The notes below the pieces were generated by a model. The model saw only the letters and a list, made by a program, of their open reading frames with translations. It was not told the DNA's origin and ran no database searches. Of a DNA stretch of 26,861 bases, positions 4,444 to 26,398 are shown piece by piece (the first letter of the stretch is position 1; every line of letters starts with the position of its first letter). Position numbers and translations under genes: made by a program. This stretch comes from a virus: positions 1 to 26,861 of IMG/VR virus record IMGVR_UViG_3300048592_000795; one strand, given 5' to 3'.

Positions 4444-5135
4444 AGTTCACCGCCTACGAGCACATGGAGCGCTGGGAGGGGCTGAGGCTCGACGCCTACC
4501 TCTGCCCCGCGAAGGTGTGGACGATCGGCTACGGCCACACCCGCACCGCGAAGCCGGGCATGAAGATCACCGAGGCCGATGCGAAGGCCCTGCTGGAATC
4601 GGACCTCGGCTGGGCGACGGCGGCGGTGAACCGGCTGGTGCGCGTGCCGCTGAACCAGAACCAGTTCGATGCGCTGGTGTCGCTGGTCTACAACATCGGC
4701 GAGGGCGGGTTCGCGGGATCCACGGTGCTGCGCCGGCTGAACGCGGGCGACTATGCCGGCGCGGCCCGGGCCTTCGAGATGTGGAACAAGATCACCGACA
4801 GCGCGGGCCGCAAGGTCGTCAGCCGCGGTCTGGAGAACCGCCGCGCGTCCGAGCGGCTGCTGTTCGAGACGAGCGCCGGGCACATCACCCCGGCCGAGGA
4901 TGCCGACCGCACCGTGATCCCCGCCGACGCGCTGCCCGTGCCGAAGGTCACGGCCGGCGCCAAGGGTGGGGCGGCGGTGATCGCGCTGGCCGCCGCCGCG
5001 TCCGAGCTGGCCGGCCAGTACGGCATTGCCCTGCCGGTCGGCGCGATCGAGGTGCTGATCGTCGGCGGCCTGACCCAGCTGGCGAGCTTCGTCGCCGGCT
5101 ACATGAAACCCTCGCGCGAAGGAGACCACCCATGA
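4440..5135 (+). CDS. Endolysin (GH24 phage lysozyme) with C-terminal membrane segments
   Basis: A 231-aa T4-type lysozyme that would cleave the N-acetylmuramic acid - N-acetylglucosamine bond of peptidoglycan. The catalytic region is clear: ERWEGLRLDAY with E13, then C22 where T4 has Asp20, then T28 in WTIGYGHT. This is the E-8-(D/C)-5-T pattern known for the family. The later FDALVSLVYNIGEGGF and GLENRRASERLLF motifs also fit. The enzyme domain ends near residue 145. About 85 further residues carry two hydrophobic stretches (~176-191 and ~200-221), so the protein probably has a membrane anchor at its C-terminus, not an N-terminal SAR signal. The start ATG overlaps the upstream stop, and the lipoprotein gene starts on its own stop. 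Confidence 0.93.
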   Translation: MKFTAYEHMERWEGLRLDAYLCPAKVWTIGYGHTRTAKPGMKITEADAKALLESDLGWATAAVNRLVRVPLNQNQFDALVSLVYNIGEGGFAGSTVLRRLNAGDYAGAARAFEMWNKITDSAGRKVVSRGLENRRASERLLFETSAGHITPAEDADRTVIPADALPVPKVTAGAKGGAAVIALAAAASELAGQYGIALPVGAIEVLIVGGLTQLASFVAGYMKPSREGDHP

Positions 5136-13082: not shown

Positions 13083-13111
13083 CCGATTGAAATCACGGCA
13101 AAGCGCCGTAA

Positions 13112-13157
13112 CTCTTAATCAATTGGTCGAAGGTTCGAATCCTTCCGAGCCCACCAT
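13112..13157 (+). other. Probable attP core: 3' end of tRNA-Lys(CUU)
   Basis: From the anticodon loop (CTCTTAA, anticodon CUU) through the T-arm (GAAGG stem, TTCGAAT loop, CCTTC) and acceptor strand CGAGCCC to the final ACCA, this matches the 3' part of a tRNA-Lys. The 5' half (acceptor 5' strand, D-arm, 5' anticodon stem) is absent: the pairing fails one base 5' of position 31. Phage genes lie on both sides and the integrase operon is 0.5 kb to the right. This is the usual form of an attP that restores the tRNA on integration. Confidence 0.85.
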
Positions 13158-13526: not shown

Positions 13527-13717
13527 CAGGCCTCCGTCTGCCAAGTCAGCCGCGCGGGGTGGGCGCGGAGGCTCTGGCGTTCGTTGTACTCGGCGACCAT
13601 GCGCTGCTTTTCGTCGTTCGACAATGCCTCGAAGGCGCGAATGGCGGCCTCCACCGGATCCCGACGCGCCTCGACCTGCAGTCGGCGCAGGTGTTCGGTA
13701 AGGGCTGCCCGTGTCAC
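13526..13717 (-). CDS. Small helical protein coupled to integrase
   Basis: A 63-aa, highly charged helical protein (EHLRRLQVEARRDPVEAAIRAF). The GTG start has a strong GGAGGAG site and overlaps the integrase stop by 4 bp (GTGA). Short, charged proteins next to int are often recombination directionality factors or regulators, but no HTH is clear. Function unknown. Confidence 0.65.
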   Translation of the reverse strand: MTRAALTEHLRRLQVEARRDPVEAAIRAFEALSNDEKQRMVAEYNERQSLRAHPARLTWQTEA

Positions 13718-14823
13718 GTCTCCTCCGGTCTCCTGATGGCCTTCACCGCGCGGCTGGCGGTGTGGCGGGTGGCGGGCATGTAGGTGCCCGAGAGCTTGGG
13801 GTCGGTCCAGGCGCTGTTGCCGAGGGCGTCGGCCACGTCGCGTTCGGAGGCGCCGGCGGCGCGGGCGAGGTGGCCGAAGGTGCGGCGCAGGTCGCGGAAC
13901 TGGAGGCTGGCGAGGGCGGGCAGGGTTTCCGCCGCTCGGGCGCGGACGCGCATCCAGGCGCGGGCGAATCGGTCGGGGTCGTAGGGGCGGCCGGTGCCTT
14001 CGTAGTGGAGGAGGCGGGCGCGGTCGCCGGCGGTGTCGAGGGCGGCCTGCAGGTGCGGCGCCAGATCCGGGTGGATGTCGAGCGCGCCGTGGTTGCCGCG
14101 CTTCGAGCGGACAAGCCGCCACATGCCCTCGCGGAAGTCGGCGGGTGCGGCGGTGATGATGTCGCGCTGGCGCTGGCCCTGGTAGAGGGCGAGGCGCACG
14201 GCGAGCGCGATCGAGGGCAGGCCAAGCGATTCGGCCGCGCCGGTCAGGGCGTCGATCTCCTCCCACCCCGCGACGCGGCGGCGGGGCGGCGGGGTGACCA
14301 TGCGCAGGCGCAGGCAGGGGTTGAGGTCGATCCAGCCCTTGCGCTCGGCATAGGACATCAGGACCGACATGTGGCGCAGCAGGCCCGCGGCCATCCACGG
14401 CCCGCGCGTGCGATAGAGCGTCTCGTACCATTCGACCATGACGGGGCGGACGAAGTCCGCGACCATGGCGGAGCCCCACTTGTCCTCGATCTGGCGAAAG
14501 AAGGCCTCGTAGCCCTTGCGGGTGTCGGGGCTGAGCCCGTCCCAGGCGGGGCTGGCGCGGTAGGCGGCGATCAGGGCGTGCACGGTGCGTCCCCGCTTGC
14601 GCGGGGATGACATGGTGCTTCCCTGCCCCCGGGCGTCGTCCACTGCGGCGTTCAGGCGCGCGGCCTCGCGCACCGACCAGGTCAGGCGCGCGGGGTCGAG
14701 CGCGACGGGTTCGAACCCGAGCTCGCGCAGCGGCGTCTCGGGTTCCCACCAGATCCGCCAGGTGCCGTCCGTGCGCCGGCGCTGGCGCAGGCGGGGCGGC
14801 GGGTTGCGGACCGGGCGGGTCAC
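13714..14823 (-). CDS. int: Tyrosine-recombinase integrase
   Basis: A 369-aa site-specific recombinase that would join attP to the host tRNA-Lys attB. Motifs: Arg I at R218 (LYQGQRQRDI), the beta-hairpin Lys at K241 (VRSKRGNHG), box II RDLRRTFGHLA at 310-320 with R313, and the nucleophile Y348 (SGTYMPATR). The usual His of HxxR is Arg (R310) and the later His/Trp position is Asn (N336, LGNSAW), variants known to me from alphaproteobacterial phage integrases. A core-binding SAM-like domain lies at about 80-180. Start GTG overlaps the upstream zinc-ribbon gene stop. Residues ~71-80 are encoded by a dispersed palindrome (14589-14611), so the very N-terminal extension may not be part of the conserved enzyme. 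It is leftward, 560 bp from the att core. Confidence 0.93.
   Translation of the reverse strand: MTRPVRNPPPRLRQRRRTDGTWRIWWEPETPLRELGFEPVALDPARLTWSVREAARLNAAVDDARGQGSTMSSPRKRGRTVHALIAAYRASPAWDGLSPDTRKGYEAFFRQIEDKWGSAMVADFVRPVMVEWYETLYRTRGPWMAAGLLRHMSVLMSYAERKGWIDLNPCLRLRMVTPPPRRRVAGWEEIDALTGAAESLGLPSIALAVRLALYQGQRQRDIITAAPADFREGMWRLVRSKRGNHGALDIHPDLAPHLQAALDTAGDRARLLHYEGTGRPYDPDRFARAWMRVRARAAETLPALASLQFRDLRRTFGHLARAAGASERDVADALGNSAWTDPKLSGTYMPATRHTASRAVKAIRRPEET
14589..14611. repeat. Dispersed palindrome inside integrase gene
   Basis: CCCCGC (14591-14596), loop TTGC, GCGGGG (14601-14606), followed by ATGAC. Same stem as the copies at 20923, 21213 and 21507. It lies in frame in the N-terminal linker of the integrase. 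Confidence 0.8.
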
Positions 14824-16851: not shown

Positions 16852-17283
16852 CTACATCTGGCGCCGCGCCTCGATGACCGACAGCGAATAATGAAGGGCT
16901 GTCGGAATCGCCAGAACGGCAAAATACCAAGCGAGCTGATCGCCGAAACGGTCGTAGCGACCCATCAACAGAACATCTTCGGCAAACCGTGCGGAGAAGC
17001 CGAACGGGACCAGCCAGCCGAACAGGCAGTTCGCCGCGGTGCCGGCCAGAAACCACGGCAGGAAGGTCGAGACGATTCGGTCGCGTGGAGAGCGCGGGCT
17101 CTCGTAGTCTATCCGCAGGCGCAGTAGCGCGTTCGCATACATGAAGGAGGTGGCTGCGATAATCAGGGCGGTCACGCAGCCCATGAGGGCGGCGGCGATC
17201 ACCGAGAGTTCGGGCCGGAACATGAATCCGAAGGTGATCTTGTAGAACATGAACGTGGCAAATGCCCAAAAGATGAAGATCAC
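16852..17283 (-). CDS. Multi-pass membrane protein coupled to the repressor
   Basis: A 143-aa integral membrane protein with about four hydrophobic segments (about 1-20, 27-50, 74-94, 116-134). Its GTG start overlaps the repressor stop (GTGA), so it should be made with the repressor in lysogens. Base composition drops to about 50% GC, unlike the operons around it, which marks it as a later addition (moron). This position and topology suit a superinfection-exclusion or other prophage-encoded protection protein. No family motif is recognised, and function is inference. Confidence 0.75.
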   Translation of the reverse strand: MIFIFWAFATFMFYKITFGFMFRPELSVIAAALMGCVTALIIAATSFMYANALLRLRIDYESPRSPRDRIVSTFLPWFLAGTAANCLFGWLVPFGFSARFAEDVLLMGRYDRFGDQLAWYFAVLAIPTALHYSLSVIEARRQM

Positions 17284-17906
17284 TTCTGCCTCCAGCTGCT
17301 GGTGACGACGCCGACGATCACGACGCGCTCGTTGTCGACGAGCATCGGCTTCAGTTCGGCCTGGTCGGTCGAGATGGCGAACAGGAACGGCGGATCGTAG
17401 CGGCGGAAGACCCGCTGCGCGTCGGCGTGGTTGAGATCGTAGACCTGCGCCAACACGTCGTCGCCAGCGCGGGCGCGCTCGGCCCGGTGCGAATCGACCA
17501 CGATCATGTCGCCGTCGACATAGCCCGCGAGGTCCATGCTGCGGCCCTTGACGGCCCAGACATCGACGCCGGGGCGATCGAATCCGAGCGGTCCGGCGAG
17601 CCGGTCCCGCAGATCGCCCCTGCCGGTCCAGTCGAAGGGCACCGCCTCCTGATCGGAAAAGCCGGGCGTCGTCATCGCGCGCACCGTCGACCCGGCCTTG
17701 AGGCCCGCGCGCTCGATCACCTCGTCGATGGTCATGTCCAGCAGTCTCGCGAAGACCGGCACCTCCTCGGCCTTCATCGGGCGCGCGTTCGAGTAGATCT
17801 TTGAGATGACCGTCCGGTCGCGGCCGATGGCGCGGCCGAGGTCGTCGCTGGTGATGCCGAGCTGGCGCTGGCGGCGCTTGAAGTGGTCCGCGTCCATGCG
17901 GGACAT
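17280..17906 (-). CDS. CI/LexA-like phage repressor (S24 fold)
   Basis: A 208-aa repressor. The N-terminal HTH spans about residues 16-40 (LGITSDDLGRAIGRDRTVISKIY). The C-terminal half is an S24-type dimerisation/self-cleavage fold: VWAVKGRSMDLAGYVDGDMIVVD with S123 as the candidate nucleophile. Where the catalytic Lys is expected (usually xVKRL) it has QRVFRRY, so Arg replaces Lys and self-cleavage is doubtful. The start is placed at 17906 by domain length; there is no good ribosome site and a GTGCGCAC palindrome abuts the ATG, so it may be leaderless as lambda cI is from PRM. It is divergent from the Cro-like gene. Confidence 0.85.
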   Translation of the reverse strand: MSRMDADHFKRRQRQLGITSDDLGRAIGRDRTVISKIYSNARPMKAEEVPVFARLLDMTIDEVIERAGLKAGSTVRAMTTPGFSDQEAVPFDWTGRGDLRDRLAGPLGFDRPGVDVWAVKGRSMDLAGYVDGDMIVVDSHRAERARAGDDVLAQVYDLNHADAQRVFRRYDPPFLFAISTDQAELKPMLVDNERVVIVGVVTSSWRQK

Positions 17907-19530: not shown

Positions 19531-19835
19531 TGCGGCGGCGCCGGGCGTTCATGCGCGTGCTGTCGTGGCGCCTGATGGTGCACACGAGTTTCGCGCATTA
19601 CGCGCCGACCGGGCGCAGCAGGGGTTTGCAGGCCGGGCAGTGGCCGGGGACGGCGGAACCAGCCGCCGCCCCGGATGCCGGCAGCCTTCCGGTGCCGGAG
19701 GATGGACCCCCGATCAAGTCGGGGGTGACAGGTTTGAGTATCGACCCGGCGGTGCGCGAGAAGTGGCGCGCGGAGCTGGCGGAGAGGCAGGCGCAGCGGG
19801 CCGTGACGGATGCCTATCGGGAGGGGTGGGCGTGA
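19530..19835 (+). CDS. Small basic protein carrying a REP-like insert
   Basis: A 101-aa protein with a very basic start (MRRRRAFMRVLSWR) and a charged helical end (REKWRAELAERQAQRAVTDAYREGW). The middle (about residues 58-68, around PPIKSGVTG) is encoded by the palindrome at 19706-19730 and a low-complexity Pro/Ala linker. A GTG three bases upstream is an alternative start. Function unknown; the palindrome may have joined two segments. Confidence 0.55.
   Translation: MRRRRAFMRVLSWRLMVHTSFAHYAPTGRSRGLQAGQWPGTAEPAAAPDAGSLPVPEDGPPIKSGVTGLSIDPAVREKWRAELAERQAQRAVTDAYREGWA
19706..19730. repeat. REP-like palindrome inside a coding region
   Basis: ACCCCCGA (19706-19713), loop TCAAG, TCGGGGGT (19719-19726), then GACA. 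An 8-bp perfect stem of the kind widely dispersed in alphaproteobacterial chromosomes. Confidence 0.85.
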
Positions 19836-20959
19836 CCCGGCTGATCGAGATCGGCGAGTTGTCCGGCAAGCTGACCGACCGCGCGCTGGACGTGGCCGAG
19901 CGCTATGCGCCTGACGGAATCCTCGAAAGGGGCCGGTACTGGGTTCAATGCCCGTGGCGGGACAGCACGCGCGAGAGCTTCTGCATCAACATCACAGGGA
20001 CCTATGCGGGCCGGTGGTACGACTGGTCACGTAAGGAAGGCGGCGACCTGCTGGACCTGATCCGGCGAAAGCACAGCCTGACCTTGCTGGAGGCCATCGA
20101 CGAGGCCTGCCGGTTTCTGGGGATCGCGAACGAGACCCCGGAGCAGCGCAGGGAGCGCGAGAGGCGCGACGCGAAGGAGCGGGAAGCGCGGGCCGAGCGC
20201 GCGCGGCTGGAGGCCGAGAAGGCGGCGGCCGAGCGTGCCCGGGAAGTAGCCAAGGCACATGCGCTGTGGCTCGAGGCGCGGCCGATCGATGGCACGCCGG
20301 CGGCGGAGTACCTGTCGGCGCGGGGCGTCGGGATCGAGCGGCTGGGGCGGTCGCCGCTGTCGCTGCGGTTCGTGCCGGCGCTGCGCTACTACCACCTGGA
20401 CAAGAAGACCAGGCAGGTCGTCGAGGGCGTGTTTCCGGCGATGGTGGCAGCGATCCATGGGCCGCGGGACGAGAGCGGACATGCGCGGTTCATGGGTGTG
20501 CACCGGACGTGGCTCGCCCGGGACGATGCGGGCGTGTGGCGCAAGGCGCCGGTGCCTAAGCCGAAGAAGGTCATGGGCGAGATGCAGGGCGGTTATATCC
20601 GGCTTTGGGCCGGGTCAGGTCGCCGGCCGGGCGCGCGGCTAAACATCGCCGAGGGGATCGAGAATGCGCTGTCTGCCGTCTTTCTCCAGCCGTCGGTGCC
20701 GGCCGCGGCGGCGATCAGCCTCGGCAATCTGAGCGAGATCGTCCTGCCCGCAGCGGTGCGGCACGTGACGCTGATCCGGGACAACGACACGAAGGCGGAT
20801 TTGCGGGCGATGGCCGACCGGGCGCGCGAGCGCTGGCTGGGCGATGGCCGCACGGTCGCGGAGTGGCCGAACGCCTTCGGCTTCAAGGACCTGAACGACG
20901 CGCTGCAGGCGGCGCTGGAAATGGGGCCTGTCCCCGCGAAGGCGGGGAGCGTGGCGTGA
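19832..20959 (+). CDS. DNA primase with CHC2-like and Toprim domains
   Basis: A 375-aa replication primase. The N-terminus has a degenerate CHC2-type zinc-finger region (about 34-98; YWVQCPWRDSTRESFCI with C40 and C51, then WYDWSRKEGGDLLDLI). A charged coiled coil follows at about 104-148. The Toprim domain lies at about 265-360: E274 in NIAEGIENAL and the D317-N-D319 pair in LIRDNDTKAD, the metal-binding acidic residues, followed by FKDLNDAL. It would make primers for the helicase encoded 0.5 kb downstream. GTG start overlaps the upstream stop (GTGA). The last ~10 residues (PVPAKAGSVA) come from a dispersed palindrome that overlaps the stop. Confidence 0.85.
   Translation: MTRLIEIGELSGKLTDRALDVAERYAPDGILERGRYWVQCPWRDSTRESFCINITGTYAGRWYDWSRKEGGDLLDLIRRKHSLTLLEAIDEACRFLGIANETPEQRRERERRDAKEREARAERARLEAEKAAAERAREVAKAHALWLEARPIDGTPAAEYLSARGVGIERLGRSPLSLRFVPALRYYHLDKKTRQVVEGVFPAMVAAIHGPRDESGHARFMGVHRTWLARDDAGVWRKAPVPKPKKVMGEMQGGYIRLWAGSGRRPGARLNIAEGIENALSAVFLQPSVPAAAAISLGNLSEIVLPAAVRHVTLIRDNDTKADLRAMADRARERWLGDGRTVAEWPNAFGFKDLNDALQAALEMGPVPAKAGSVA
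20923..20949. repeat. Dispersed palindrome at the primase C-terminus
   Basis: GGGGCCTG, then CCCCGC (20932-20937), GAAG loop, GCGGGG (20942-20947). Translated in frame as PVPAKAG. Confidence 0.85.
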
Positions 20960-21246
20960 AGACGAAGGTGCGGGACCATCCCCGGCGCGAGGACGAGCGC
21001 GTCCTGATGATGCTGCACCTGCGCGAGGTCGAGGGCCTGCAATGGGCCGAGATTTCCGAGCGCTACGGCAATCCGAAGACCTATGCGAACGTGACCTGCA
21101 ACCGGGTGCTGCGCGACCTGGCGGAGAGCGAGGGGCCGGTGCCCGTGGTGCAGGCCAAGCCCGAGAACCGCGACGGGTCGCAGGGGCCGCTCTGGTGGCG
21201 GAAGAGGGCGGTGGGGCCTGCTCCCGCGAAAGCGGGGGTGCGATGA
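20956..21246 (+). CDS. HTH protein of replication operon
   Basis: A 96-aa protein with a sigma-region-4-like HTH: LMMLHLREVEGLQWAEISERYGNPKTYANVTCNRVLRDL (about 17-56). It starts with GTG on the primase stop. The C-terminal ~15 residues (VGPAPAKAGVR) are encoded by a dispersed palindrome. It might regulate early/late switching or assist origin recognition; this is inference. Confidence 0.68.
   Translation: MKTKVRDHPRREDERVLMMLHLREVEGLQWAEISERYGNPKTYANVTCNRVLRDLAESEGPVPVVQAKPENRDGSQGPLWWRKRAVGPAPAKAGVR
21213..21240. repeat. Dispersed palindrome at the HTH-protein C-terminus
   Basis: GGGGCCTG then CTCCCGC (21221-21227), GAAA loop, GCGGGGG (21232-21238). Same order and orientation as the copy at 20923. 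Confidence 0.85.
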
Positions 21247-21431
21247 TTTATGCCGTCGTCACCGTCTGCGCGCTCGCCATGCCGGACCGCTGCCGGACGG
21301 TCGAGTTACCGATGCCGCCGTGGTTCCGGATCGAGTTCTGTGCGCGGGCGGCGGTGTCGCTGCAGGCGCATCTGGCGCTGAACGGGATGCACCTGGTGGC
21401 CTACGAGTGCAAGGAGGGCGAGCCGGCATGA
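21243..21431 (+). CDS. Small Cys-containing unknown protein
   Basis: A 62-aa protein with four Cys residues (VCALAMPDRCRTVELP, EFCARAAVSL, YECKEGE). The spacing is not a standard zinc finger. Start ATG overlaps the upstream stop (ATGA), and the next gene starts on its stop. Small proteins of this form occur beside phage helicases, but I cannot name it. Confidence 0.6.
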   Translation: MIYAVVTVCALAMPDRCRTVELPMPPWFRIEFCARAAVSLQAHLALNGMHLVAYECKEGEPA

Positions 21432-23329
21432 GCGATTCGCCCGAGGTGCCGAAGCGTCCGACGCTGCAGCTGTTGCGCGGCGAGCTGGAGGGCGCGCCGG
21501 AGCAGGTGCCACCCGCTTTCGCGGGTGCAGGCTCCGCACCCCCCGAGACCCCGGCAGACTACTCGCCAGGGCGCGCCGGTCCCCCGCGCGGGCGGCCGGA
21601 CCGGGCGCCGGGCGAGATCTGGCCGGGGTGCCCGGTGAAGGCGCTGGGGGTACACGGGTCGGTCTATTTCTACCTCGACCTCCTCAACCAGCTCGCGGCC
21701 GTCGAGGGGCACACGAAGGACCGGATGCGCGGGGTGTTCGGCGGGCGGTCGGACCTCTTGATGTCGAAGTTCCCGCAGTATTCGCGGGGCGAGACGCCGA
21801 GCGTCATCGGGTGGAAGCAGGAGGACTGCGCCACGGCGATGATGCGGGCGGCGACCGAGAAGGGCATCTGGAACGCCTACGAGCGCGTCCGCGGCCTCGG
21901 CGCCTGGCCGGACGGTGCGGGCGGCGCGATCCTGCATTGCGGCGACGGGGTGCTGATCGGCGGGCGCTGGCAGGTCCCGGGCGAGCACGACGGATACGTC
22001 TATCCCGGCGCGGGGGCGATCCCGCGGCCGGTGGACGAGACGGCGAGCCACGACACGCCGGCGGCCGACCTCGTGGACCTGCTGGCAACGTGGAAGTGGT
22101 CGCGGGGCGAGATCGACGCCTGGCTGCTGCTCGGCTGGGTGTGCGGGGCGATGTTCGCCGGGGCGCTCGACTGGCGGCCGCTCGTCTGGATCACGGGAGA
22201 CGCGGGCACGGGCAAGAGCACGCTTCAGAAGCTGCTGGTCACGCTGCTCGGCGGCGAGCGGGCCGTCCTGGCGTCGTCCGACCCGACCGAGGCCGCCATC
22301 CGGCAGTTCCTGGCCGCGCATTCGCAATCGACGATCCCCGTGATCCTCGACGAGATGGAGGCGGAGGAATCGAACCAGCGGGTGAACGCGCTGATCAAGC
22401 TGGCGCGGCAGGCGGCGAGCGGCGGCGTGGTGCTGCGCGGATCGACCGACCACAAGGGCCACGAGTTCCGGATCCGCTCGACGTTCCTGTTTTCCTCGAT
22501 CCTCGTGCCGCCCTTGCTCGACCAGGACATCAGCCGCATCGCGCTCCTGGAGCTGATGGAGTTGCCGCGCGACGTCGTGCCGCCCAGGATCGACCCGAAG
22601 CGCTGGGGGCGCGTCGGGCAGGCGCTGGCGAGGCTCGTCATCGAGCGCTGGGGGCGGCTGGCGGATACGCTCGCCATCTATCGCGCGGCGCTGGCGCGGG
22701 CGGGTCACAACGCGCGCGGCTGCGACCAGCTGGGAACGCTGCTCGCCATGGCGGACATGGCCTATTACCCCGACCCGCCGGACGCCGACCGGGCCGACAC
22801 CTGGGCGAAGCAGCTGAGCGCCGAAGACATCGTAGACCAGACCGACATGAGCCGGGATTGGCAGCGGATGCTGAACCACCTGCTTGGCCAGCACATCGAG
22901 CCGTTCAGGAGCGGGCAGCGGTATAGCGTCGGGCGCTGGGTGCGCGCGGCCGCGGGCCTCGAGGAGGCGCCGCAGCCGCATGACGCGCGAAGTGCCCTGC
23001 CGAGCTATGGGTTGCGTGTCGAGGGGCGCGGCGATGCGGCGCGGCTGGTGGTGGCGAACAGTCATCCGATGCTGGCGCAGCTCTTCGCGAATACCCGCTG
23101 GTACTCGGGCAGCGCGTCGCGCGGCGTGTGGGCGCAGGCCTGCAAGCGCGTGCCGGGCTCAACCGCAACGAAAGCGATCCGATTCGACGGCGTGGCCTCG
23201 CGCGCGTGGTCGATCCCCCTGCCCTCGATCCCCGGCCTCTTCGGCGAGGACGCGCCCGGTGGCGCGCAGAATGCCGAGCGTGTGCCGTCGCTTAGCGGCG
23301 ATCCCTCAAGCCCCGATCACTTCGTCTAG
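21428..23329 (+). CDS. AAA+/SF3-like replicative helicase
   Basis: A 633-aa ATPase. Walker A GDAGTGKST is at about residues 257-265 and Walker B VILDEME at about 305-311. A downstream RSTFLFSSILVPPL probably holds sensor 1 and DISRIALLEL an Arg-finger region, as in SF3 or phage D5-like helicases. The N-terminal ~50 residues are Pro/Ala-rich and include a dispersed palindrome product (PPAFAGAGS), so they are probably an unstructured linker. The C-terminal ~170 residues look like a DNA-binding region (QRYSVGRWVRAAAGLEE). With the primase it would form the phage replisome core. No DNA polymerase is visible in the window. Confidence 0.8.
   Translation: MSDSPEVPKRPTLQLLRGELEGAPEQVPPAFAGAGSAPPETPADYSPGRAGPPRGRPDRAPGEIWPGCPVKALGVHGSVYFYLDLLNQLAAVEGHTKDRMRGVFGGRSDLLMSKFPQYSRGETPSVIGWKQEDCATAMMRAATEKGIWNAYERVRGLGAWPDGAGGAILHCGDGVLIGGRWQVPGEHDGYVYPGAGAIPRPVDETASHDTPAADLVDLLATWKWSRGEIDAWLLLGWVCGAMFAGALDWRPLVWITGDAGTGKSTLQKLLVTLLGGERAVLASSDPTEAAIRQFLAAHSQSTIPVILDEMEAEESNQRVNALIKLARQAASGGVVLRGSTDHKGHEFRIRSTFLFSSILVPPLLDQDISRIALLELMELPRDVVPPRIDPKRWGRVGQALARLVIERWGRLADTLAIYRAALARAGHNARGCDQLGTLLAMADMAYYPDPPDADRADTWAKQLSAEDIVDQTDMSRDWQRMLNHLLGQHIEPFRSGQRYSVGRWVRAAAGLEEAPQPHDARSALPSYGLRVEGRGDAARLVVANSHPMLAQLFANTRWYSGSASRGVWAQACKRVPGSTATKAIRFDGVASRAWSIPLPSIPGLFGEDAPGGAQNAERVPSLSGDPSSPDHFV
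21507..21534. repeat. Dispersed palindrome near the helicase N-terminus, inverted
   Basis: ACCCGC (21511-21516), TTTC loop, GCGGGT (21521-21526), then GCAGGCTC. It is the reverse complement orientation of the copies at 20923 and 21213. Confidence 0.85.
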
Positions 23330-23791
23330 GTCGCCCGCGATGACACCGCGCCCCCATCCCCGCGCCAGTTTCGACCCCGCGCCCCGACCCTGTGGGCAGA
23401 AGCCATCAACGCGCGATCGGGCGGGCGTGGCTCGCGCGTGGGTTGTGCCGTGCGGCCGGGTCCGGGGTGATCGCCCTGTGGTTGCAAGCCGCAACGGTCG
23501 GGAAAAACGTTACACCGGCGTTACAGTTTTTGTTGCGGCGAATGTCCAGCGAAAACAACGGCTTGGCGCGCATCCGCAACGGTGCAACGGTTTTTTGCGC
23601 CTTCCTCGCATACGCGCGCAGACGCTACGCGCGCGCGCGACATGCGTTGCGTTGTTGCGTTTCTATCTTAACCTATTGATAGATATAGGAATTCTCTGCA
23701 ACGTTGGGTGTAACGCCGGCTGCAACACCCTGAGGGAGTGTTGCAGCGGCGGGGTCAACTTGTTGAAATCATTAAATATGGGGGTGCGGTG
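23330..23791. other. Repeat-dense non-coding segment: candidate origin or cos site
   Basis: No convincing gene in 462 bp. About ten GCAAC/GTTGC pentamers lie between 23481 and 23747. GCAACGGT occurs at 23491-23498 and twice in tandem at 23576-23591. CGTTACA occurs at 23508 and 23519 (11 bp apart). CCGGCGTTACA (23515-23525) has a perfect inverted copy at 23709-23719. A hairpin GCTGCAACAC / GTGTTGCAGC lies at 23719-23747. A clearly AT-rich island is at about 23659-23697. It stands between the helicase and small-terminase genes. Confidence 0.65.
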
Positions 23792-24442
23792 ATGCCCTCG
23801 GAGAGCAAGCTGGCCGTGTTCGAGGTCAAGGCGCGGGAGGCTGCGGGGCGGCTGGACCGTGCGGCGGGGCTCGGGCGGCAGCTGAGCCTGATCCCGGCGG
23901 AGGCGAGCCCGGCGGATCCCGGCGAGCTGGAGCGGCGCGGGCCGGGCCGGCCGCAGGGCGCGCGGAACAAGCGGACCTCGAAGCTGCGGCAGATGCTGGC
24001 GGCGCGCGGGTTCCGGATGCCCGAGGACGTGCTGTCGGAGATCGCGGGGCTGTCGGCGCGGGTGTCGTCGGTGGAGCTCGCCATGCAGCGGGCCGAGCAG
24101 GTGCTGGCCTGGGCGCACGACGGGGCGGAAGAGCCTGCCACGCCGGGCCAGCGCCTGGCGGTGTTCCTGGCGTGCCACAAGGAGGCGACACAGGCGGCGG
24201 CGGCGCTGCTGCCTTACGGGCTGGAGCGGATGACGCCCGACCAGGTGGCGCCGGCGGTGACGGTGCTGCAGCTGCCGGGACAGGCGCGGCCGGGCGATCG
24301 GGCGCGGGTGATCGAGGGATCGGCGTCCGACTGCGCGCCGCCGCCGCTGCCTCTGAAATTCGTGGAAAATCAAGCGGTTGAGTTCGGGCAGGATCCCGGA
24401 TCGGACGGGGCGAGTCGGACGGATGGGGCGAGCGATGGGTAA
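23792..24442 (+). CDS. terS: Probable terminase small subunit
   Basis: A 216-aa protein directly upstream of the large terminase. The N-terminal ~70 residues are charged and helical, with RRGPGRPQGARNKRTSKLRQML (~50-70), a pattern I associate with phage small terminase or DNA-binding packaging proteins. The middle is helical (VELAMQRAEQVLAWAHDG, RLAVFLACHKEATQAAAALLPYG) and suits ring oligomerisation. It would recognise the packaging site and load DNA to TerL. The start ATG at 23792 is preferred over an in-frame ATG 54 bp upstream, which lies in the hairpin. The call rests on gene order and composition. Confidence 0.68.
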   Translation: MPSESKLAVFEVKAREAAGRLDRAAGLGRQLSLIPAEASPADPGELERRGPGRPQGARNKRTSKLRQMLAARGFRMPEDVLSEIAGLSARVSSVELAMQRAEQVLAWAHDGAEEPATPGQRLAVFLACHKEATQAAAALLPYGLERMTPDQVAPAVTVLQLPGQARPGDRARVIEGSASDCAPPPLPLKFVENQAVEFGQDPGSDGASRTDGASDG

Positions 24443-24698
24443 GGCGTTGAAATCGCAGGGCAATCGCGGTGCGGTGCGGTTGATTGGAAATCAGGCGCGT
24501 GCCGTGGTGGCCGGGCGCCACCGGGCTGGCCGCGGCGCCGAGCTGGTCGTCCAGGGCGACGGATCGCGACCCACCCCCGGGTCTTCGCCTGCGGGCCGCG
24601 CGCGGCGCGCGACCCCCGGGGGGGCCTCGGCCGCCCGAAGACTGCCGCCCCGGAGTGTGAGGCCATCCGGCCTTTCGGGAATCGGAGGTCGGGCATGA
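24435..24698 (+). CDS. Doubtful small ORF before the large terminase
   Basis: An 87-aa ORF overlapping the small-terminase end by 8 bp and the large-terminase start by 4 bp. The first ~45 residues (MGKALKSQGNRGAVRLIGNQ) could be real. The rest is Arg/Ala/Pro-rich and lies in sequence with strong GC palindromes around CCCCCGGG (24574-24582 and 24613-24622) and GTCTTCG/CGAAGAC (24582-24588, 24637-24643). It may be a spurious frame. Confidence 0.3.
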   Translation: MGKALKSQGNRGAVRLIGNQARAVVAGRHRAGRGAELVVQGDGSRPTPGSSPAGRARRATPGGASAARRLPPRSVRPSGLSGIGGRA

Positions 24699-26398
24699 GC
24701 GCGGACGGAGGTTGTCCGGATCGGGGTCGGGGGGGAAAGCCCCTGGCCGCACCCGCGAACGGGCTGGGGTTCGATCCGGTCGGGGCGGACGCCGCCGAGA
24801 CGGTCGCGAGGCTGGAGGGCAACTTCGCCGATGGGGTGGAGATGCCGAACGCCCTAGGCTTACGCTTCCCGGGGCCGGTGGCGCAAGCCTTTTATCACGA
24901 CGACCGGCCGGTGACCTGCATCCAGGGGCCGGTCGGTTCGGGCAAGACGACCACGGTGGTCTATTCCCGCCTGCGCCGGGCGCGGCAGATGCCCCGGTCG
25001 GTGATCGACGGGGTGCGCCGCTACAAGCTGCTGGCGCTGCGCGAGACGTACCGGCAGCTCTGGTCCTCGACCATCCCGAGCTACCTGGAGACGATCCCGA
25101 AATCGCTGGGTGCGTGGTCGGGCGGGCGGGGCGCGCCGGTCAGCCACACGGTGCAGTTCGAGGACGAGTTCGGCCCGATCGAGTGGGTGGCCGAGTTCAT
25201 GGCCTTCGGCGACGACATCATCGGCTCGATGCGCGGCATCCAGACCGTCGACATGTGGCTGAACGAGGCCGACACCGTGCCGGTCGAGACGCTGACGACC
25301 GGGATCGGCCGCATCAAGCGCTGGCCCGGCCGGCGGCATTTCGAGGGCTATGCCCCGCCGCACGACAGCTGGGGTCAGATCGCCTGCGACATGAACGCGC
25401 CCGACCGGGACAACTGGACGTTCCAGGTGTTCCACGACGAGGAAGGCCGCGGCCGGATGGAGCGGGACCTCGGCATCGCGATCGGGTTCCACGACCAGCC
25501 GGGCGGGCGCGCGCCGGGGGCGGAGAACCTGACGAACCTGCCGGCGGATTACTACACCACGCAGGTGGCGACGATGACGCTGGCCGGGCGCGGCGACATG
25601 GTGGCGCGGCTGGTCGACAACCGGGTGACGTGGCTGCGCGCGGGCGATCCGGTCTTCAGGCGCGAGTTCGCCCCGGCGATCCACGTGGCGCGCGAGCGGA
25701 TCCCGGTGGACCGGGCGCTGCCGCTGATGATCGGGCTGGACCAGGGCTTCCTCGGCGCGGCGGTGGTGGCGCAGAAGCCCGCGCCGGGACGGTGGCGGGT
25801 GCTGGCCTGCCTGATGTTCCCGCGCGAGCGGCTGATGGCGCGCGAATTCGGCAACCGGCTGCGCGACCTCTTGGACGCGCATTTCCCCGACATGCCGGTC
25901 GGCGGCGCCTGGGGCGACATGGCGGGCGAGCACGGGGCGAGCCAGGCGGCGGACGAGAACGCCACCTGGAACCTGATGGTGGGCAAGGCCGCGGGGTTCC
26001 GGGTGATGCCCCAGCGGATCGGGTCGAACCGCCTGCAGCCGCGGCTGGAGGCCGTGCGCGCGGTGCTGGAGAGCCTGCACGGCGGCGAGCCCGGCCTGTC
26101 GATCTGCCCGAAGGGGCCGGGCACCGACATGCTGATCGCGGGGCTGGAGGCGCGGTACGTCTGGAAGGACGAGATCGACGCCCGCGGCGACAAGCGCAAG
26201 ACGCCCGACAAGTCGATCGCCGAGGCGAACGTGGTCGACGCGCTGCAGTACCTGCTGCTGAGCGAGGTGCGCGGCGACGGGGCCAGCCCCGGCACCTTCG
26301 CCAGCCGCGTCAGCCACGCGCGGCGGTGGGAAGGCGCGCCGGTGAGCGGCCTGAGCGTGCGGCACGACGTGCTGAACCCCTACGGGGGTGCTGCGTGA
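24695..26398 (+). CDS. terL: Terminase large subunit
   Basis: A 567-aa DNA-packaging motor. ATPase domain: Walker A GPVGSGKTT at 78-86, a Walker B-like VDMWLNEAD at 185-193 with E191 as catalytic carboxylate, and LRETYRQLWSSTIPSYLETIP between them. Nuclease domain: D349 (MIGLDQGFLG), D408 (AWGDMAGE) and D near 512 (ANVVDALQY), the three-Asp RNase-H-like site that cuts the concatemer. Start ATG has GGAGG seven bases upstream. It shares its stop with the next ATG (TGATG). Confidence 0.93.
   Translation: MSADGGCPDRGRGGKPLAAPANGLGFDPVGADAAETVARLEGNFADGVEMPNALGLRFPGPVAQAFYHDDRPVTCIQGPVGSGKTTTVVYSRLRRARQMPRSVIDGVRRYKLLALRETYRQLWSSTIPSYLETIPKSLGAWSGGRGAPVSHTVQFEDEFGPIEWVAEFMAFGDDIIGSMRGIQTVDMWLNEADTVPVETLTTGIGRIKRWPGRRHFEGYAPPHDSWGQIACDMNAPDRDNWTFQVFHDEEGRGRMERDLGIAIGFHDQPGGRAPGAENLTNLPADYYTTQVATMTLAGRGDMVARLVDNRVTWLRAGDPVFRREFAPAIHVARERIPVDRALPLMIGLDQGFLGAAVVAQKPAPGRWRVLACLMFPRERLMAREFGNRLRDLLDAHFPDMPVGGAWGDMAGEHGASQAADENATWNLMVGKAAGFRVMPQRIGSNRLQPRLEAVRAVLESLHGGEPGLSICPKGPGTDMLIAGLEARYVWKDEIDARGDKRKTPDKSIAEANVVDALQYLLLSEVRGDGASPGTFASRVSHARRWEGAPVSGLSVRHDVLNPYGGAA

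Follow-up and report, generated by a model that had tools for sequence, protein, structure and literature searches.

A symmetrical array of short repeats at 23481–23744 of the viral sequence analysed here (the window, 26,861 nt; IMG/VR record IMGVR_UViG_3300048592_000795) is very probably an iteron-based replication origin of the kind known from SaPI, PICI and P4, with a D5-fold helicase as its predicted reader. Our analysis establishes that the array exists, that its symmetrical layout is conserved and that it is linked to the helicase and not to the terminase; it also shows a covariation between helicase residues and iteron bases, and matches to the IHF consensus in the spacers.

Iteron array in the window

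Ten GCAAC/GTTGC pentamers fall within 23470–23750 (at 23481, 23491, 23532, 23576, 23584, 23646, 23654, 23698, 23722 and 23740), against 0.55–0.57 expected from Markov sequences of the window's composition, in which the maximum was 4 (2000 trials each). A preliminary description of the sequence had reported such a cluster, and the count of 10 against about 0.6 bears it out; no second 281-bp stretch of the window reaches 10, and no second iteron cluster was found within this incomplete record, a 26.9-kb linear fragment. The other elements listed in that description were likewise recovered: tandem GCAACGGT units at 23576 and 23584, a CGTTACA pair spaced by 11 bp (with GTTAC at 23509 and 23520), an 11-bp inverted repeat CCGGCGTTACA/TGTAACGCCGG at 23515 and 23709, and an AT-rich island at 23659–23697. 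The CGTTACA copies are one-base variants of the same iteron at the positions expected for the left group, and the inverted repeat derives from variant iterons of the left and right groups. Because the variants GTTAC (23509, 23520) and GTAAC (23710) occupy positions held by exact iterons in relatives, the array comprises 13 iterons in 264 bp, 10 with an exact GCAAC and 3 differing by one base.

The iteron of the window is TGCAACG, and the first copy lies 152 bp 3' of the helicase stop codon. Group A (23481–23536) consists of 23481<, 23491>, 23509<, 23520< and 23532< (> and < denoting the two orientations), with the 11–12 bp spacing seen in relatives. The A–B spacer (23537–23575; 39 bp, or 44 bp between iteron starts) carries an IHF-like site, AAACAACGGCTTG, at 23553–23565 on the plus strand, which agrees with the consensus at 8 of 9 positions. 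It is followed by pair B (23576–23588, plus strand; 23576> and 23584>, 8 bp apart) and by a central GCGC-rich stretch with alternating purine/pyrimidine runs (23589–23645), similar to that of relatives, which contains the axis of two-fold symmetry. Beyond the axis lie pair C (23646–23658, minus strand; 23646< and 23654<, 8 bp apart), the C–D spacer (23659–23697) and group D (23698–23744; 23698>, 23710>, 23722> and 23740<). The C–D spacer is AT-rich (28% G+C) and is the proposed unwinding element, whereas the A–B spacer, at 62% G+C, is not AT-rich; a perfect 9/9 IHF-like site, TATCAATAGGTTA, at 23669–23681 on the minus strand mirrors the one between A and B.

The segment 23470–23750 contains no evident gene, Rfam family or sigma-70-like promoter. 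Intergenic DNA with short words in both inverted and direct arrangement might also be an operator array for a transcription regulator, either the small protein encoded at 20956–21246 or a CI-like repressor (17280–17885, minus strand). We regard this as scarcely credible, given the lack of a promoter and the presence of 13 sites in a fixed, symmetrical 264-bp layout that tracks the helicase across phages and plasmids. The 20956–21246 protein had also been named in the preliminary description, as a helix-turn-helix (HTH) protein, among the candidates for tests of binding to the repeats, a role that did not hold up: tblastn found a homologue in none of 50 terL-bearing relatives and there was no family match, so this protein is not a general iteron reader.

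Genes flanking the array

The genes preceding the array form a replication module on the plus strand. A DNA primase (19820–20959; Pfam/PHROG matches, DUF7146 and Toprim_3) is encoded upstream of a D5-type AAA+ helicase (21428–23329; PHROG primase/helicase families), the proposed origin-binding initiator, whose residues are numbered here from an upstream GTG at 21320 (669-aa reading). No match to the helicase emerged from a profile search of PDB sequences. Its AF2 model (pLDDT 82) matched D5/E5 (MPXV E5, vaccinia D5), SCCmec Cch (5dgk) and SaPI5 Rep (7ola) in Foldseek, with E of about 3e-8 to 6e-7 and 10–14% identity, and these matches assign the modelled protein to the D5-type fold. The C-terminal domain (22826–23242, plus strand), in which covariation with the iteron sequence is elevated, is the proposed iteron-reading domain; it was modelled at a pLDDT of 90.5, and since a fold search with this domain alone gave no significant solved relative, we do not describe it as a winged helix. 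On the other side of the array, outside the proposed origin, lie a small terminase subunit homologue (terS; 23792–24442, plus strand), which is conserved between array and terL in relatives, and the large terminase subunit (terL; 24695–26398, plus strand; PHROG phrog_2).

Elsewhere in the window, 13110–13155 has a CTCTTAA loop, GGTTCGAATCC and a CCA end and with these features resembles the 3' portion of a gene for a tRNA, possibly tRNA-Lys CTT, although ARAGORN and Rfam reported no tRNA there. It lies about 0.6 kb from an integrase gene (13714–14823, minus strand) and is a probable attP core.

Conserved symmetrical layout with variable iteron words

Fifty loci carrying a relative of the large terminase were retrieved. 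Five of them (L015, L028, L029, L031 and L032) contain 10–14 GCAAC/GTTGC per 281 bp at the same place, 1.2–1.3 kb upstream of terL, and the remaining loci with enough flanking sequence have an array of a different word between helicase and terS (CCGCTACA, CCACGACG, CACAACG, CTACAAC, GCCATACC, GGTAAC and AAAACA, among others). The gene order is constant throughout: primase, helicase, about 450 bp, terS, terL. In L031, a perfect DnaA box at 4717–4725, TTATCCACA, immediately precedes the array; the corresponding place in the window lacks one.

Across 92 dereplicated loci the iteron word varies by lineage, with 40 different 4-base words preceding AC, yet the layout stays constant despite the change of word: A(>> <<), 44 bp, B(>>), alternating purine/pyrimidine, C(<<), 44 bp, D(>> <<). 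In relatives, group A has forward iterons about 8 bp apart and reverse iterons 11–12 bp apart, and is separated by 43–44 bp from B (>> 8 bp apart); a stretch of about 60–90 bp rich in alternating purine/pyrimidine leads to C (<< 8 bp apart), which is separated by 43–44 bp from D (>> 12 bp apart, then <<). The spacing between neighbouring iterons in the 92 loci peaks sharply at 43–44 bp for divergent copies and at 8 and 12 bp for copies of the same orientation, while the copy number of single groups varies from one to three. The two halves of the array mirror each other, and the whole is nearly two-fold symmetric about its centre. Mean G+C was 0.48 in the A–B spacer and 0.33 in the C–D spacer, compared with 0.64 for whole loci (35 loci with both spacers measured).

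The spacers were scored against the IHF consensus WATCAANNNNTTR (9 positions). At least 8 of 9 positions matched in 36 of 61 A–B spacers compared with 1.3% of shuffles, and these matches are nearly always located 16–17 bp into the spacer in a single orientation. The C–D signal is weaker and in the mirror orientation (at least 8 positions in 13 of 63 spacers, against 4% of shuffles); matches of at least 7 in this orientation gather at the mirror place, whereas those in the opposite orientation are equally many but scattered.

Linkage of the array to the helicase

Homologues of the helicase were collected by tblastn in phage and plasmid records and by an alignment-based (A1) search of genome and viral contigs; a single-sequence search of the viral contigs found nothing, and the alignment-based search succeeded. 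Of 167 helicase loci, 139 had an array at p<1e-6 downstream of the helicase gene, compared with 1 of 736 control windows from the same loci; the other 28 helicase loci lack an array by this threshold. The distance from the helicase stop to the first iteron had a median of 114 bp and was at most 300 bp in 83 of the 92 dereplicated loci, and 73 of 77 loci with an array encode the primase family upstream of the helicase. Several loci (L059, L079, L080, L121, L122, L143, L147, L150, L173, L178 and others) have a helicase homologue and no clear array within 1.5 kb downstream.

The position of the array next to terS raises the question of a packaging site, cos or pac, in which the small terminase encoded 48 bp downstream would bind the repeats with the help of IHF bending. 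Phage lambda cosB combines repeats with IHF bending, a resemblance that favours this reading, as does the placement of the array directly 5' of terS in the window and in the terL relatives with flanking sequence. Furthermore, in three contrary cases (L033, L034 and L052) the array is found 0.7–2.5 kb from the helicase after insertions and still beside terS. In L033 and L034, about 0.7–2.1 kb of extra DNA lies between helicase and array.

Against a packaging site, the array also follows the helicase gene in phages that have other terminases, at loci without the terminase families, and in a linear plasmid for which no terminase is annotated. The Arsenophonus plasmid paNv_CH14 (NZ_CP123558.1; L058) has five annotated genes, including those for a protelomerase and a helicase homologous at E 3e-52 to the A1 profile, with no annotated terminase among the five and no TerS-family match. 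Directly after its helicase gene it carries an array of the form << 45 >> ... << 45 >>, with about 45 bp between divergent iterons and 8/9 IHF matches at the same places in the spacers. In two sister plasmids, which carry a distant terS gene, the helicase is followed by arrays of other words, GGTAACA and CTAACA-type, with 13 copies in each. L058, L187 and L188 are small linear plasmids of Arsenophonus nasoniae with helicase, iteron array and an Rpn-family gene. L058 and L188 also have an annotated protelomerase, and terS is far from the array in two of the three. Among array loci with 1.8 kb of downstream sequence, 35 of 91 had no TerS-family match, and 6 of these 35 (including L058) also had no TerL-family match, a score that leaves room for an unrelated terminase. 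The two-fold symmetry, in addition, is more in keeping with bidirectional replication from an origin than with packaging that starts in one direction. Taken together, these comparisons strongly support an array that belongs with the primase–helicase module and not with the terminase.

It is possible, if rather unlikely, that the region serves two purposes, as an origin whose terS-proximal edge (group D and a TTGAAATC..GGGGG element at about 23757–23791) is also the packaging start. By a rough pattern match, that element precedes terS in roughly half of the array loci that have TerS and is rare in the others, and the persistence of the array beside terS after insertions is in keeping with such a dual role; on the other hand, GGGGG is explicable as a ribosome-binding site. 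Position 23757–23791 and the same place in relatives show a conserved TAAsCCnTTGAAATCnTT...AAGGGGGnTTTT directly before terS, of which the TTGAAATC part could be a packaging or promoter element and GGGGG may be the ribosome-binding site.

Covariation of helicase residues with iteron bases

To relate helicase residues to iteron bases, the words were registered on the nearly universal AC, which two loci lack; because the choice of this anchor was in part made during alignment of the words, we do not press its invariance. By mutual information, the helicase column most strongly tied to base −3 was residue 621 (Z 18.6, against 11.6 for the next), and that most strongly tied to base +1 was residue 628 (Z 9.8, against 6.5). 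In the window both are arginines (R621, codon 23180–23182; R628, codon 23201–23203; plus strand), corresponding to positions 119 and 126 of the C-terminal domain, in the last beta strands of that domain. The contingency table for residue 621 and base −3 paired 32 of 35 Thr with A, 23 of 25 Arg with G and 6 of 7 Tyr with C, and all 8 Lys at 628 occurred with C or T. Position −2 gave a high Z in helicase and primase alike. A sliding-window partial correlation showed several peaks (N-terminal 186–206 and the C-terminus) and was therefore not used to single out a site.

As raw covariation Z is inflated by shared ancestry, a tree test was conducted on a quick maximum-likelihood tree from which residues 612–645 were left out. 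Thr as opposed to Arg/Lys/His/Asn at 621 matched A as opposed to G at −3 in 64 of 66 cases, and about 7 of 7 independent switches went in the same direction with none contrary (P=0.016); for residue 628 about 4 of 5 switches agreed, too few for significance. Forty pairs of helicases more than 50% identical differ only at −3 within the four variable bases of their iterons, a minority of which do not fit. Examples are L014 and L164 (80% identical), in which Thr to Lys accompanies CACAAC to CGCAAC, and L113 and the window (53% identical), in which Thr to Arg accompanies TACAAC to TGCAAC.

The neighbouring proteins are linked more weakly to the iteron than helicase residue 621. In the 56 loci with TerS, mutual information with base −3 was 0.75 for residue 621 and 0.48 for the best TerS column, and for the primase, in its own set of 80, the maximum was 0.53 for base −3 and 0.61 when all positions are considered. 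A helper protein co-evolving with the helicase could in principle underlie the covariation; primase and TerS were the candidates checked and were found weaker. Of the two readings in the preliminary description, an iteron origin next to the helicase or a cos/pac site next to terS, the first is the one with which array, architecture and covariation agree; the second we consider very unlikely because arrays are present without the TerS and TerL families and the TerS covariation is weaker.

The residue–base covariation strongly supports recognition of the iterons by the C-terminal domain of the helicase. We think it likely, on these sequence comparisons, that origin specificity follows a legible code in which residue 621 sets base −3 (Thr–A, Arg/Lys–G, Tyr–C) and residue 628 sets base +1, such that the phages would come to have many origin types that exclude one another, on a mirror-image, IHF-bent architecture that remains fixed.

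Proposed mechanism and implications

For the iteron origin we propose a model in which the helicase encoded just upstream would bind the TGCAACG iterons through its C-terminal domain, with R621 setting base −3 (G) and R628 base +1. Host IHF would bend both 44-bp spacers, so that two nucleoprotein complexes, one on A+B and one on C+D, arise as mirror images; these would load two helicase rings facing opposite ways, the AT-rich C–D spacer would melt, and the primase of the same operon would prime both forks for bidirectional replication. Helicase binding, IHF action, the melting site, ring loading and bidirectionality are what we infer from the features described above, and how binding would lead on to loading and melting is drawn by analogy with SaPI, P4 and IHF-dependent origins. 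GC skew was uninformative as an origin indicator, since on a 26.9-kb linear fragment it is not readable across the genome.

In the openly accessible literature we found no description of the origin of this phage family or of such a residue–base code. If the model is correct, the location and type of the origin could be predicted from sequence alone in this family, and incompatibility of origins among related elements would become a question of one residue and one base. Furthermore, an origin organisation that has been called exclusive to phage-inducible islands would be common in temperate phages and present in plasmids, and this wider spread would bear on the source of the islands.

Comparison with known systems

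Lambda-type and Rep-type origins also place iterons beside an AT-rich segment; the iterons of the window, however, lie outside the initiator gene, and the proposed initiator is a helicase and not O or Rep_3. In SCCmec, the C-terminal domain of Cch2 binds iterons downstream of its own gene (PMC7581432), and the fold of the window helicase matches that of Cch (5dgk), but Cch2 has three 5-nt iterons without a mirror-image array.

The type I iteron of P4, GGTGAACA, fits an N4-AC-N word; its ori (9312>, 9322>, 9333>, 9354<, 44 bp, 9398>, 9408>) corresponds to a single half module, and there are two in crr, which lies directly 3' of alpha. In P4, however, the half modules are direct repeats at two separate sites (in the incomplete record analysed here, one region with both was seen), primase and helicase are fused, and no IHF match was found in the spacers. 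A kinship of the helicase with P4 alpha by sequence was not supported, as only 36 columns aligned, at the Walker A motif (hhalign probability 17.7%).

The SaPI/PICI module comprises primase and D5-type helicase genes with the origin 3' of the helicase, where iteron sets flank an AT-rich segment (PMC7581432, PMC6092414), and the C-terminal domain of SaPI Rep recognises the iteron origin directly downstream of rep (PMC7581432). The window resembles this pri–rep–ori order in its adjoining primase and D5-type helicase genes, in a candidate origin immediately 3' of the helicase gene, and in groups A/B and C/D arranged around 44-bp spacers, of which C–D is AT-rich; a PICI-like plasmid (L056) has a helicase of the same family together with such an array. 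It differs in belonging to a family of temperate phages of Alphaproteobacteria, in having a Toprim primase as opposed to the AEP type of SaPIs, and in the mirror-image 44-bp half modules, the IHF-like sites and the 40 iteron words of its family. Because the features of SaPI/PICI and P4 are shared, the array of the window would be expected to work like this known kind; it is set apart by half modules that form a mirror-image pair, by IHF-like sites, by the diversity of words and by its occurrence in alphaproteobacterial temperate phages.
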